A stretch of DNA of 64,000 bases from Nitrospirota bacterium (lineage in GTDB: Bacteria; Nitrospirota; JACRHJ01): the NCBI GenBank assembly GCA_021784575.1, contig JAJYHX010000002.1, positions 62,001 through 126,000 of the forward strand, written 5' to 3'. The position numbers and the translations under genes were made by a program. The notes under the pieces are model-generated. The model ran no database searches. It was not told the origin of the DNA and saw nothing but the letters and a program-made list of their open reading frames with translations. Below are positions 17,994 to 50,344 of this stretch, in pieces (the stretch's first letter is position 1; every line of letters begins with the position of its first letter).

Positions 17994-18914
17994 ATGCCTG
18001 AAAACATTATAGAAGCCAAAGGCCTGCGCAAGGAATATTCCGGATACCCTGCTGTCAAGGGAATAGATTTCAGCGTGGAGCGGGCGGAGTGTTTCGGGTT
18101 CCTGGGGCCCAACGGCGCCGGCAAGACCACGACGATGAACATGCTCCAGGGCTATGTGACCATCACCGGCGGCACGCTCAGGATATTCGGAATGGAACTG
18201 CGCGGGAACGAACGGAAAATAAAGGCCCGCATGGGCGTCGTCCCGCAGGAGAACAACCTTGACCCAGACCTCTCCGTAATGGAGAACCTCCGCGTCTACG
18301 CCAGGTATTTCGACATCCCGAAGGCCGAGGCGATGAGGCGCGCGGCGTCACTTCTTGAGATGATGTCTCTGCTGGACAAAAAAAACGAGAAGATAACAAG
18401 GCTCTCCGGGGGGATGAAGAGACGGCTCATGCTCGCCCGCGCGCTGATAAACGACTCCGACCTCATAATGCTCGACGAGCCGACGACAGGGCTCGACCCG
18501 CAGGCGAGGCATCTCATCTGGCAGAAGCTCAAGGAGCAGAAGCGCCAGGGCCGGACGATGGCGCTTACCACGCACTACATGGACGAGGCGGCGCACCTTT
18601 GCGACAGGCTTGTGGTGATGGACCAGGGCAGGATACTTGCGCTGGGCTCGCCGCAGGAGCTGGTTGATAAATACGCCCGGGGAAGCGTCGTGGAACTGCC
18701 TGTGCCGAGAGGTGGCGAATCGGAAGTGTTAAATGCGCTCGCCGGCGCGGACTACGACTACGAAATATCCGGAGATACGCTTTTTATCAACAGCGCGGAC
18801 GGGGACTCGGTTATCGCGAGGCTTGCGCGCTTTACAAAGGGCGGTTTCGTCCACAGGCCCGCCACGCTCGAAGACGTGTTCTTGAAGCTTACGGGCAGGG
18901 AGCTTCGGGAATGA
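17994..18914 (+). CDS. ABC-2 transporter ATP-binding protein (NodI/DrrA-like)
   Basis: Nucleotide-binding subunit (306 aa) of an ABC-2-type exporter. Walker A GPNGAGKTT is at about residues 38-46, the signature is LSGGMKRR, and Walker B is LIMLDEPTTGLDP followed by the switch His in TTHYMDEA. The 90-residue C-terminal extension is typical of DrrA/NodI-like exporters of lipids, polyketides or drugs. It starts 10 bases after gdhA, and its stop overlaps the permease start (ATGA). Substrate unknown. Confidence 0.9.
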   Translation: MPENIIEAKGLRKEYSGYPAVKGIDFSVERAECFGFLGPNGAGKTTTMNMLQGYVTITGGTLRIFGMELRGNERKIKARMGVVPQENNLDPDLSVMENLRVYARYFDIPKAEAMRRAASLLEMMSLLDKKNEKITRLSGGMKRRLMLARALINDSDLIMLDEPTTGLDPQARHLIWQKLKEQKRQGRTMALTTHYMDEAAHLCDRLVVMDQGRILALGSPQELVDKYARGSVVELPVPRGGESEVLNALAGADYDYEISGDTLFINSADGDSVIARLARFTKGGFVHRPATLEDVFLKLTGRELRE

Positions 18915-42334: not shown

Positions 42335-43501
42335 ATGGCGCTCGAAGGAACCATAAAAGAGTTCGGCCTGGCGGATATTTTCCAGCTTATCGGCCTGCAA
42401 AAAAAGACTGGCACGCTCTTCCTCAAGGGTCTTGAATCCACGGTTAACATACACTTTGAAGACGGGGCCGTGGTGAAGATCGACGAAAGCGCGAAACTGC
42501 CGAAATACCTTACCGGCAGGATATTTATTAACCTTGGGAAAATAAAGCCGGCGCAGCTCGAAGAGGCCCTTGAGATACAGAAGACGACGGCCCGTAAGAT
42601 AGGGAGCATCCTTATAGGCCAGGAAGTCATAAACAAGGACGACCTGAAAGACGCCCTGTCATTCCAGATGAAAGAGGCGGTTTACAGGGTCTTCAGGTGG
42701 AGGGGCGGGGATTACAAGTTCTACCAGGACAAGGTGGACTACGACCGGGACACCATCACCCCCTTAAGCTCCGAGCACCTCCTGATGGACGGCGTAAGGA
42801 TGCTCGACGAATGGCCGAGGCTCGAAAAAACCCTTCCGTCAGCCGATACCGTCCTCAAGAAAGACGAGCAGAAGACAATCCCGGAAGAGGCGGCGGAGGG
42901 AGAAGAGATATTTTCGTACGAATCAGGGCCGGGCGGCCTATCGAAGGAAGCCGCCCTTACGTTCAGGAATATCCGCGGCAGCAGGACGGTCTACGAAATC
43001 ATAGAGTCCTCTCCGCTTGGCGAGTTCGACGCCTCGAAGGCGATTGTGGAGCTTATAGAAAAAGGCTATCTCGGCAAGACGGAGTCCATACCGGAGATTG
43101 TGCTGCACGAAAAGGCGATAAAGCGCAACAACGGCATTGCCGGCTGGTCTCTCTACATCCCGTATCTCGCTGTATTCCTAAGCCTGGGATTGATTGTCTT
43201 CCAGATTACGGGGACAAGGAAGATAATGAACCCGGGAGCGACGAACTTCCCGGATATAAAGGTCTCGTTCTGCTCAAGCCAGGTCCAGAAGCTCAAGGAA
43301 AACGCAGAGCTTTATTATTTCGATTACGGCCTGTATCCTCGGGACGCATCCATACTTAAGAAGCGGGGTTATTACACGAATATAATCGACCCCTGGGGAA
43401 GGACACTGCTTTTGAATTACAGCGGCGGGGAGCCCGTGGTTTCAAGCGCAGGCCCCGACGGCGTCCCCGGCACGGCAGACGACATCTCAAGTAATCCGTA
43501 A
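42335..43501 (+). CDS. DUF4388 (PATAN) protein with GspG-like C-terminal domain
   Basis: 388-aa protein. Residues 1-100 are a DUF4388/PATAN domain (MALEGTIKEFGLADIFQLIG, TGTLFLKG), and the segment to about 170 continues as the DUF4388-associated helical region (GEILVRQ-like SILIGQEVINKDDLKDAL). One transmembrane helix (about 275-292) is followed by a sequence like the type II pseudopilin GspG core (NAELYYFDYGLYP, DPWGRTLLLNYSGG, AGPDGVPGTADDI). The topology would put the GspG-like part outside the membrane, joined to a cytoplasmic regulatory domain. No prepilin peptidase motif precedes the helix, so it is not a normal pseudopilin. Confidence 0.72.
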   Translation: MALEGTIKEFGLADIFQLIGLQKKTGTLFLKGLESTVNIHFEDGAVVKIDESAKLPKYLTGRIFINLGKIKPAQLEEALEIQKTTARKIGSILIGQEVINKDDLKDALSFQMKEAVYRVFRWRGGDYKFYQDKVDYDRDTITPLSSEHLLMDGVRMLDEWPRLEKTLPSADTVLKKDEQKTIPEEAAEGEEIFSYESGPGGLSKEAALTFRNIRGSRTVYEIIESSPLGEFDASKAIVELIEKGYLGKTESIPEIVLHEKAIKRNNGIAGWSLYIPYLAVFLSLGLIVFQITGTRKIMNPGATNFPDIKVSFCSSQVQKLKENAELYYFDYGLYPRDASILKKRGYYTNIIDPWGRTLLLNYSGGEPVVSSAGPDGVPGTADDISSNP

Positions 43502-43569
43502 CCAGGACCACCCGGGATGAAAAGAGTTACAGCACAAGAGGCATGACAGACGACATCTCCGGCAATCCG
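43469..43569. repeat. Degenerate 30-bp direct repeat beside dif
   Basis: 43469-43498 (last codons of the DUF4388-GspG gene) and 43540-43569 match in 25 of 30 positions. The second copy would encode GMTDDISGNP, against GTADDISSNP at the gene end, and stops six bases before the dif candidate. Confidence 0.7.
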
Positions 43570-43574
43570 CATCG

Positions 43575-43602
43575 AGTTTACATAATATATCTTATGGGAC
43601 GT
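43575..43602 (-). other. dif: Candidate dif (XerC/XerD recombination) site
   Basis: 28-bp site of 11+6+11 architecture. Written on the minus strand: XerC-side arm ACGTCCCATAA, centre GATATA, XerD-side arm TTATGTAAACT. From memory, the XerD arm equals that of Bacillus subtilis dif and the whole site differs at about four positions; against E. coli dif about 20 of 28 positions agree. It lies between two genes near the point where gene orientation switches. Only one such site was noticed. Confidence 0.8.
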
Positions 43603-43604
43603 TC

Positions 43605-44844
43605 TTGATTATCCGGGCGAAAAAGATATTGCCGATAACCGCGCCGCCTATAGACAACGGCGCCGTTGTCGTTCAGGGCCGAATGATAGCCGCAATCGGC
43701 AGGGAATCCGCCGTCATAAGGAAATATCCGAAGGAAACCGTTGTGGACCTGGGCGACCGGCTCGTCATGCCGGGGCTTGTCAACTCCCACACCCACCTCG
43801 AACTCTCGCACCTCAAGGGCAAAATCGGCGAAAGGCGCGAGTTTTTCGACTGGATAATTGAGCTGGTGGAGACCAGGCGAAGGCTCGGCTCGAAAGGTCT
43901 TCGGCAGGCCCTGAGGGCCTCGCTTATGGAGGTTTTGACCTCCGGCACGACCTGCATCGGCGACATATCCGCAACCGAGGCCGCGATCCCGATGCTCTCC
44001 AAAAGCGGGCTCAGGGCGACGGTATTCCTTGAGGCGCTCGGCCCGGACGAGCGCAAGGCGGAGCATGTATTCAAGGCCCTGAAGGCCCGACTTGCAAAGC
44101 TCGGAGCTCTGCCGGACAGGGTCTCAGTCGGTGTGTCTCCGCATTCTACTTATTCCGTATCTCCATTATTAATCAGAATGATAGCCGAGTATACTTCAGA
44201 TAATGGCTTACCTGTCGCGGTTCATCTGTCTGAAAGTAAACATGAAAATCTGTATATCAACGGCAAGGCATCGGGCATCGACGGCTACATGAAACACTTC
44301 GGCTGGGAGGGCGCAACAAGAAAAAAGGCGCGCTCCCCGCTGGGACTGTTGAGCCAGGCCGGGCTTGGGAATTTTGCGGCGGCGCACTGCGTGCACGTCT
44401 CAAAACAGGACATCAACTACATGAAAAGCAAGGGGATTTCCTCCATTTTCTGCCCCAGGAGCAATTATTTTCTGGGCGTAGGAAAGGCGCCCGTGGAAGA
44501 CATGGCGCAGGCCGGAGTCAACATTGCCATCGGGACGGACAGCCTGGCAAGCAACATAAACCTCAACCTCTGGGACGAGATGCGTTTTGCCTACCTCGTA
44601 AGCCGTCTCCCGGCAAGGAATATCGTGGAGATGGCGACGATAAACGGGGCCAGGGCGCTGGGGCTTGAAGGGATAACCGGCTCCCTTGCGCCCGGCAAGG
44701 AGGCGGACATTATCGCCGTCCACGGCACCGCCGCAAAGTCTAACGACCCGTATTATCCCCTCCTGATGGATACAAAACGCGAGGACGTCTCCGCCGTAAT
44801 AGTCCAGGGCAGGCCCCTGCACTCCACAGACGGATACATCGACT

Positions 44845-44855
<11 letters not shown>
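43605..44855 (+). CDS. Amidohydrolase, probable aminodeoxyfutalosine deaminase
   Basis: 416-aa metal-dependent hydrolase of the ATZ/TRZ-chlorohydrolase-like amidohydrolase family. Metal ligands: VNSHTHLELSHL, AVHLSES, AAHCVHVS and IGTDSLASN. Directly before mqnE and mqnC, so it most likely deaminates 6-amino-6-deoxyfutalosine to futalosine (the MqnX step); this rests on context. It starts with TTG 43605, two bases after the dif candidate, leaving no room for a normal ribosome-binding site outside dif. Overlaps mqnE by 11 bases. Confidence 0.78.
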
Positions 44856-45939
<1,084 letters not shown>

Positions 45940-45949
45940 CGAACAAACG

Positions 45950-47008
45950 GTGAAAACCCTGCTTAAAAAGGCCGTGTGCGGGAAGCGTCTGACGAAGGAC
46001 GAGGGAATCTCCCTGTTCCTCGGGGCCGGGCTGCTGCCGCTCGCTCGTGCCGCGGACGAAGTCCGGAAGCGCCTGCACCCGGAAGGCGTCGTCTCCTTCA
46101 TCATAGACCGGAACATAAACTATACCAATGTCTGCGTAAACCAGTGCAGGTTCTGCGCCTTCTACAGGGCCGAGGACGCGCCGGAGGCATATCTCCTGCC
46201 GGACGACGTAATATTCCGGAAAATCAGGGAGACCGTCGAGGTCGGCGGCACGCAGATACTCATACAGGGCGGTCTGCACCCCAGGCTCGACATCTCGTAT
46301 TACCGGAGGCTTTTCTCCGGGATAAAGAAACGGTTTAACATTAATATTCATGGGCTTTCGCCAGCAGAGATAAAGCATATTGCTAAGAATTCTGGCCTGA
46401 CAATCAGAGAGACCTTGGTTAACCTTAAAAAAGCCGGGCTGGATTCAATCCCCGGCGGCGGCGCGGAGATACTGGTTGACAGCGTCCGGGGCGAGGTAAG
46501 CCCTAAAAAAATATCGTATGAGGGATGGCGCGAGGTGATGCTGACGGCCCAGGAGCTGGGGTTCCCGACTACCGCGACGATGATGTTCGGGAGCGTGGAG
46601 AGGCCGGAAGATATAGTCGAGCATATCTTCCGGGTGCGCGAGATGCAGGACGCGCACCACGGCTTCACAGCCTTTATCCCCTGGACGTATCAGCCGGGCA
46701 ACACCGAGCTTGGCGGAAAAACGGCGACGGGCGTGGAATACCTACGGGTTCTCGCGTTCTCGCGGCTTTTCCTGGATAATGTCCCGAATTTGCAGGTCTC
46801 GTGGGTTACACAGGGGGCGGCGATGGCCCAGGCGGCGCTTCGGTTCGGGGCGAACGATTTTGGGAGCACGATGCTCGAAGAGAACGTCGTGGCCGCTGCG
46901 GGAGTAAAAAACCGTATGGATTCCGGGGACATTGTATATCTAATTAAAAATGCAGGTTTCACTCCCGCGCAACGCGACACCAAGTATTCGATTTTAAAGG
47001 TTTTTTAG
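45950..47008 (+). CDS. mqnC: Cyclic dehypoxanthinyl futalosine synthase MqnC
   Basis: 352-aa radical-SAM enzyme that cyclises dehypoxanthinyl futalosine. The cluster motif is CVNQCRFCAFYR, followed by QILIQGGLHPRL and PGGGAEIL; clearly paralogous to the preceding MqnE. I start at GTG 45950, ten bases after the mqnE stop. It is the last rightward gene before the strand switch. Confidence 0.93.
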   Translation: MKTLLKKAVCGKRLTKDEGISLFLGAGLLPLARAADEVRKRLHPEGVVSFIIDRNINYTNVCVNQCRFCAFYRAEDAPEAYLLPDDVIFRKIRETVEVGGTQILIQGGLHPRLDISYYRRLFSGIKKRFNINIHGLSPAEIKHIAKNSGLTIRETLVNLKKAGLDSIPGGGAEILVDSVRGEVSPKKISYEGWREVMLTAQELGFPTTATMMFGSVERPEDIVEHIFRVREMQDAHHGFTAFIPWTYQPGNTELGGKTATGVEYLRVLAFSRLFLDNVPNLQVSWVTQGAAMAQAALRFGANDFGSTMLEENVVAAAGVKNRMDSGDIVYLIKNAGFTPAQRDTKYSILKVF

Positions 47009-48956: not shown

Positions 48957-49002
48957 TTCATCCCCCTCTTGTTCTTAAGAGGTGGAGCGAGGGGGTGTTA
49001 TG
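48957..49002. repeat. TCATCCCCCTCTT...AAGAGG repeat (family C)
   Basis: Fills the gap between mtaB and the ThiI-like gene; the copy has TTGTTCTTAAGAG at its centre. Confidence 0.75.
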
Positions 49003-50344
49003 AAAGTCCCTGGATTCCCGCCTTCGCGGGAATGACGTCCGGCGCACCAGCGTTATGAATGACGCCGCTTGTCGCCCACTTGTCCGCGCCAATTATTTTA
49101 ACATCGATTGGCCTGCCCGGGGCGGCATTTTTCCCGTCGAAGGAGACCCGGACGTAATTATCCGTCAGGCCGGAGAATGTCCCGTCCTTTTCCTCCGCTA
49201 CGACCGTCATGGTGTTCCCGGCGAGGCTGCGCCGGAAGTCAAGGTTCTTCCTGCCGCCAAGCTCCCGGAGCCTCTCGCTCCTCTCGCGCTTCACGTCCCC
49301 CGGCACCGGGTCTCCCATAGTATACGCCTTTGTGCCCTTCCGGGGGGAATAGCTGAAGACGTGGAGATAGTTTATGGGAGAGTCCTCTATCCGCTTCAGC
49401 GTCTCTTCAAAGGCGCTCTCGTCCTCGGCGGGATAGCCGACAATCACGTCCGCGCCTATACACGACTCAGGCTCCGCCTTCTCGATTCGTTTTACGACAC
49501 CCAGGTAATCCTTCCAGTCGTATCCCCGGCCCATCGAGTCGAGGACCTTATCGCTTGCGCTCTGGAGCGGCACATGGAAGTGCCGGCAGAGTTTTCCGCG
49601 CGATGCAAGTCCTGTCAGCTCATCGTCGATTTCCATCGGCTCGACGGAGCTAAGGCGAAGCCTCCCAAGCCCCGGCCTTTCCAGGAGCTTTGCGACGAGG
49701 CCGGAAAGCCTTAAGCCGCTTAAATCCTTTAAGTCCTTTCCGTATGCGCCGAGATGCACGCCGGTAATAACAATCTCGTAATATCCCCTGGCTATGAGTT
49801 CGTCCGCCCTGGCCATGACGTCTTCGGGCCTTGCGCTCCGGGAGCGGCCCCGCGCATACGGGACGATGCAGTATGAGCAGAACGAGTCACAGCCTTCCTG
49901 TACCTTCAAAAAGGCGCGAGAGCGGCCGCCAACCGCTTGAGCGAAATGGGAGACCAATTTTATAACCGTGGATTCTTCGCTGCGCTCAGAATGGCATCCT
50001 TCCTTACGCCTACCCGCTATAATATCCGGAATACTTTCCCGCTCCTCGTTCCCAATGACCGCATCCACGCCGTCCATGCCCTTTATGGCGTCCGGGGCGA
50101 CCTGCGCGTAGCACCCGGTAACGAGCACCATACCGCCGGGCTTCCTGGCCTTTACCGCACGGCGAATCTCCTGCCGGCACTGGTAGTCGCTCTTGCCGGT
50201 AACGGAGCATGTGAAGATTACCTGCGCGTCGGCCTCGCCCCTCGAAGCCACGGCTTGTCCGCCGCGCGCCGAGAGGCTTTCGCCAAGCGCCGCCGCATCG
50301 AACTGGTTTATCTTGCAGCCGAGGGTTGTTATGTGGAATTTCAT
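48998..50344 (-). CDS. mtaB: tRNA t6A37 methylthiotransferase MtaB
   Basis: 448-aa radical-SAM methylthiotransferase converting t6A37 to ms2t6A37 in tRNAs reading ANN codons. UPF0004 domain cysteines: LGCKINQFD, FTCSVTG and TGCYAQ; radical-SAM motif CDSFCSYC; a TRAM domain follows. Two oddities: residues about 113-128 (HSERSEEST) are an in-frame interspersed repeat between the N-terminal domain and the radical-SAM core, and the C-terminus (VIPAKAGIQ) is read from another repeat, so the natural stop was lost or displaced. The catalytic residues look intact. Overlaps miaB by four bases. Confidence 0.94.
   Translation of the reverse strand: MKFHITTLGCKINQFDAAALGESLSARGGQAVASRGEADAQVIFTCSVTGKSDYQCRQEIRRAVKARKPGGMVLVTGCYAQVAPDAIKGMDGVDAVIGNEERESIPDIIAGRRKEGCHSERSEESTVIKLVSHFAQAVGGRSRAFLKVQEGCDSFCSYCIVPYARGRSRSARPEDVMARADELIARGYYEIVITGVHLGAYGKDLKDLSGLRLSGLVAKLLERPGLGRLRLSSVEPMEIDDELTGLASRGKLCRHFHVPLQSASDKVLDSMGRGYDWKDYLGVVKRIEKAEPESCIGADVIVGYPAEDESAFEETLKRIEDSPINYLHVFSYSPRKGTKAYTMGDPVPGDVKRERSERLRELGGRKNLDFRRSLAGNTMTVVAEEKDGTFSGLTDNYVRVSFDGKNAAPGRPIDVKIIGADKWATSGVIHNAGAPDVIPAKAGIQGLS
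49015..49032. repeat. TTCCCGC-CTTC-GCGGGAA palindrome (family A)
   Basis: Perfect seven-base arms, identical core to 38924-38941. It encodes the last residues of MtaB. Confidence 0.85.
49964..49998. repeat. CCGTGGATTCTTCGCTGCGC repeat inside mtaB (family B)
   Basis: Best-preserved family B copy. On the coding strand it reads as CHSERSEEST in frame. Confidence 0.85.

Follow-up and report, generated by a model that had tools for sequence, protein, structure and literature searches.

The dif site is a textbook element of bacterial chromosomes, and a survey spanning 16 phyla predicted it for 641 organisms, among them a single member of the Nitrospirae, for whose genome the Firmicutes, Chlamydiae, and Proteobacteria profiles all gave one identical site (PMC3025954). 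The 28-mer described here adds to this known kind, being almost certainly the chromosomal dif of a Nitrospirota bacterium. It shares the phylum with the site predicted by Kono et al. 2011 (PMC3025954), whose work includes one Nitrospirae genome, versus about 200 scanned here. The window, meaning the whole stretch of 64,000 nucleotides that was analyzed (C2:62001-126000), belongs to a genome of 2.1 Mb in 14 contigs that is about 97% complete. Compared with the dif of Bacillus subtilis, the 28-mer agrees at 24 of 28 positions (XerC arm 8/11, center 5/6, XerD arm 11/11), so the initial annotation was right in equating the two XerD arms and in calling the XerC arm close. The Escherichia coli dif shares the 11-6-11 layout and agrees at 19 of 28 positions, with a weaker XerC arm (6/11). 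The site and its surroundings are composed as follows.

42335..43501, plus strand: DUF4388 protein with a weak C-terminal T2SSG (pseudopilin) match; ends 73 bp before dif
43575..43602, minus strand: predicted dif site, 28 bp; minus strand 43602-43575 reads ACGTCCCATAA-GATATA-TTATGTAAACT
43592..43602, minus strand: XerC arm ACGTCCCATAA; relatives have ACGTC[CT][CGT]ATAA and close variants
43586..43591, minus strand: central hexamer GATATA, the part of the site that differs between relatives
43575..43585, minus strand: XerD arm TTATGTAAACT; the phylum form TTATGTNAANT is near-invariant
43605..44855, plus strand: amidohydrolase, probable aminofutalosine deaminase; best NCBIfam match NF006269, below the cutoff
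44845..45939, plus strand: mqnE, aminofutalosine synthase (TIGR03700, 471 bits over the cutoff)
45902..47008, plus strand: mqnC, cyclic dehypoxanthinyl futalosine synthase (TIGR03699, 489 bits over the cutoff)
46956, no strand: peak of the cumulative GC skew, computed for the entire contig of 331,818 bp (contig position C2:108,956)
48998..50344, minus strand: mtaB (TIGR01579, 397 bits)

Read directly from the window, positions 43575-43602 are AGTTTACATAATATATCTTATGGGACGT on the plus strand and ACGTCCCATAAGATATATTATGTAAACT as the reverse complement. The initial annotation had proposed an XerC-center-XerD layout in an intergenic gap, and both proposals hold, as the 28-mer lies exactly at these coordinates with an 11-bp XerC arm, a 6-bp center, and an 11-bp XerD arm, is partly palindromic, and falls within the gap 43502-43604 between two plus-strand open reading frames (42335-43501 and 43605-44855, the latter with a TTG start). 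Just 2 bp separate dif from this TTG, so that the XerC arm sits where a ribosome-binding site would be. On the other side, a 37-nt direct repeat (43469-43505 and 43540-43576, 78% identical, offset by 71 bp) is present; apparently the terminal part of the DUF4388 gene (3') exists in a second copy immediately ahead of dif, which makes the spacer wider than in genomes of the same genus. No Rfam family was found in the window.

The 28-mer is single in the genome when the whole 2.1-Mb assembly is searched with up to three mismatches, while the reversed control gave 0 matches; the possibility of several copies, raised in the initial annotation, is thus answered by one copy only in an assembly that is about 97% complete. 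Within the window, the core ATAA-N6-TTATGTAAA has one mismatch-free occurrence. The 28-mer is almost certainly the sole dif of the chromosome.

The position of the site was compared with the cumulative GC skew, which was computed over the full contig C2 (331,818 bp) and only sampled on other contigs. C2 has a single skew maximum, after which the curve declines for more than 200 kb, and dif lies just 3.4 kb before this peak of the whole 332-kb contig, with a mean skew of +0.055 to its left and -0.057 to its right. Peak, end of mqnC, and switch in gene direction fall together near 47 kb: mqnC, the final rightward gene, stops at 47008, the next genes are leftward, and the switch is 3.4 kb from dif, where about 3.5 kb had been estimated. 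The initial annotation, which took the site as a mark of the terminus, is refined in that the site marks the terminus region; the switch is found at about 46.96-47.0 kb. With both skew and gene direction changing 3.4 kb beyond dif, dif need not be the exact point where the forks meet. Such an offset is usual according to the dif survey, in which the positions of dif and of the skew shift-point correlate without coinciding exactly (PMC3025954). The KOPS-like octamer GGGNAGGG is polarized toward dif (22:8 on the left, 11:35 on the right), which may simply follow the GC skew. Contig C6 carries dnaA at 53.7 kb, close to a local minimum of the cumulative skew at 57.8 kb (first 80 kb of C6). As dnaA and dif are on separate contigs in this genome, the distance to oriC is taken from relatives only. 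Within C6 and C14 the sampled skew takes both signs, which fits with or without a second switch.

The genome codes for the corresponding recombination machinery, so that none of the three grounds for refutation named in the initial annotation (several copies, a distant skew switch, no XerC/XerD) applies. There are five tyrosine recombinases, every one of them outside the window. One is XerD, above the NCBIfam equivalog cutoff (370 versus 329.6 bits), and another is XerC by best match, with 327.7 bits against an equivalog cutoff of 335.15 (about 7 bits under) and with a gene context of trmFO-like and hslV-like neighbors, as read from the translations; the remaining three score far lower than both. 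An FtsK with a C-terminal gamma domain is encoded on C6 (PF09397, 81 bits). The context of the XerC-like gene resembles the trmFO-xerC-hslV context of codV in B. subtilis, where XerC corresponds to CodV and XerD to RipX.

Across the phylum, 196 near-complete genomes were searched with the pattern GTCNNATAAN6TTATGTNAANT, allowing at most one mismatch, and 184 of them have a match, mostly a single one. A strict pattern found exactly one site per genome in 23 of 99 relatives, and a looser one with fewer fixed bases was dropped, since its excess matches in AT-rich genomes made it unusable for copy counts. In each of the nine relatives whose skew was measured to the left and right of the site, it decreases from one side to the other with a common orientation; among those nine, the drop is negligible in G015 (+0.0115 to +0.0086), and G087 is negative on both sides. 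Among genomes assembled as a single contig, 14 in number, the site is 0.26-0.495 of the circle away from dnaA (mean 0.44), and in G054 the sign of the sampled skew switches at 2.2-2.5 Mb, with the site at 2.50 Mb. Nearly all Nitrospirota therefore have one site, which lies where the skew drops and on about the opposite side of the circle from dnaA; this is the conservation in relatives that the initial annotation had suggested looking for.

Some relatives carry variations on this arrangement. In one genome of family f8, dif is present twice at a distance of 117 bp, with identical sequence and direct orientation (G012:C54:17950-17975 and 18067-18092), from which XerCD would be expected to excise the intervening piece. 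Two other genomes have two good dif motifs each on different contigs (G117, on C28 and C61; G028, on C4 and C125), for which a second replicon, an integrated element, or assembly contamination are options. Some relatives have, 24-25 bp past the XerD arm of dif, a further XerD half-site in inverted orientation (AGTTTACATAATAT or ATTTTACATAATAT), namely in family f8 (L024, L025, and L028; three genomes) and in family f6 (L044 and L126; genome G019, with two copies), and G010 shows a comparable one. This half-site is absent from the window.

Genomes of two families share the genes around the site. The order TPR gene, DUF4388 gene, dif, amidohydrolase, mqnE, and mqnC is kept in family f1, to which the genome belongs, and in f3, despite protein identities as low as 25-40%. 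In the genomes of both families dif occupies the spacer immediately 5' of the probable aminofutalosine deaminase gene of the mqn operon, and in two f3 genomes it is the entire space between the stop codon of the DUF4388 gene and an ATG one base on. A site that fills the spacer before a start codon makes a regulatory element a serious rival, so the 28-mer could be read as a conserved operator, promoter, or leader of the adjoining mqn (menaquinone) operon, particularly as the site stays directly 5' of the amidohydrolase start codon between genera whose proteins are 34-50% identical. We nevertheless consider this reading very improbable, as the motif behaves independently of the operon. It is retained in f2, f8, and f9, which have no true mqnE (f9 has no mqnE match at all), and outside f1 and f3 it is missing from all 27 mqnE loci examined (4 kb). 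In f4, f5, f12, and f16, 140 kb separate dif from mqnE, or the two occupy separate contigs. The motif is single-copy and follows the drops in GC skew. It thus neither regularly accompanies the mqn genes upstream nor disappears where they are absent, and, motif and mqnE being dissociable, a role as mqn operator as the sole function is refuted.

A dif site of the chromosome itself also has to be distinguished from a genuine Xer site left behind by an integrated phage, plasmid, or IMEX, given that such elements exploit dif-like sites and many Xer sites are mobile. This origin is about as improbable as the previous one: there is one site in the genome, the surrounding open reading frames include no integrase (the five tyrosine recombinases being elsewhere) and no phage match, and the gene order is shared with relatives down to 34% protein identity. 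As for a resemblance by chance, 28 bp is short and AT-rich cores turn up randomly with several mismatches, but with a profile built solely from Nitrospirota sites outside the genus the site scores 46.6 bits, against 15.6 bits for the runner-up on the 332-kb contig (31 bits lower) and best scores of 8.4-13.1 bits in ten simulated first-order contigs of 332 kb, and relatives have the orthologous site at the same place, so that the probability of a coincidence is negligible.

With the 28-mer taken as the native dif, the site itself is an ordinary feature for Nitrospirota, and it is the neighboring genes that are unusually well conserved. The genomic neighbors of the B. subtilis dif differ from those in the window. 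Within the phylum, mqnE and mqnC are found within about 6 kb of dif, on either side, in f1, f3, f6, f19, and f35, and a MiaB-like gene lies beside dif in relatives from f4, f11, f12, f13, f16, and f19. In f6 miaB faces mqnC, and in the window miaB is just beyond mtaB. The linkage with mtaB was assessed by joining the phylum-wide dif positions with the TIGR01579 positions, which gave at least 117 dif places with a listed mtaB. At no fewer than 63 of these at least 117 places the two are on different contigs of fragmented assemblies, where linkage is unscorable; at 37 or more, covering at least 16 families including f1, mtaB is within 10 kb of dif. All 37 listed linked mtaB genes are on the XerC side and transcribed toward dif. 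The 3' end of mtaB is at most 1 kb from dif in at least 34 genomes of at least 15 families other than f1, and among the cases listed within 1 kb the gap is mostly 180-240 bp, counted from the end of the profile match. The mtaB gene of the window is likewise on the XerC side, 5.4 kb from dif, with the mqn genes and a ThiI-like gene intervening, and in family f9 the linkage of mtaB and dif has been lost.

Terminus regions are commonly regarded as prone to rearrangement, which makes the linkage of both mtaB and mqn genes with dif less expected. Shared ancestry explains the mtaB-dif pattern, and a constraint on this linkage is possible. That the neighborhood as a whole (mtaB on the XerC side, mqn close by) is kept phylum-wide under constraint, beyond a mere rarity of terminus rearrangements, seems rather unlikely to us; under such a reading, dif may also serve the gene that follows as its leader, or the spacing between mtaB and dif may matter. 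A literature search found no description of a conserved dif neighborhood, which is weak evidence of novelty.

From known Xer biology, we can predict how the site would work. XerC would bind at 43592-43602 and XerD at 43575-43585, each to its own 11-bp arm. Should sister chromosomes recombine into a dimer, FtsK at the septum would draw both terminus regions together and its gamma domain would activate XerD. Two ordered strand exchanges over the 6-bp center would then resolve the dimer, giving two monomers.

In a phylum that is poorly cultured, dif provides a solid landmark of the terminus, and the single phylum pattern that locates it in 184 of 196 genomes is an aid for orienting metagenome assemblies. 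The fixed neighborhood of the site, with the linkage of mtaB and of the mqn genes to dif, offers a testable case.
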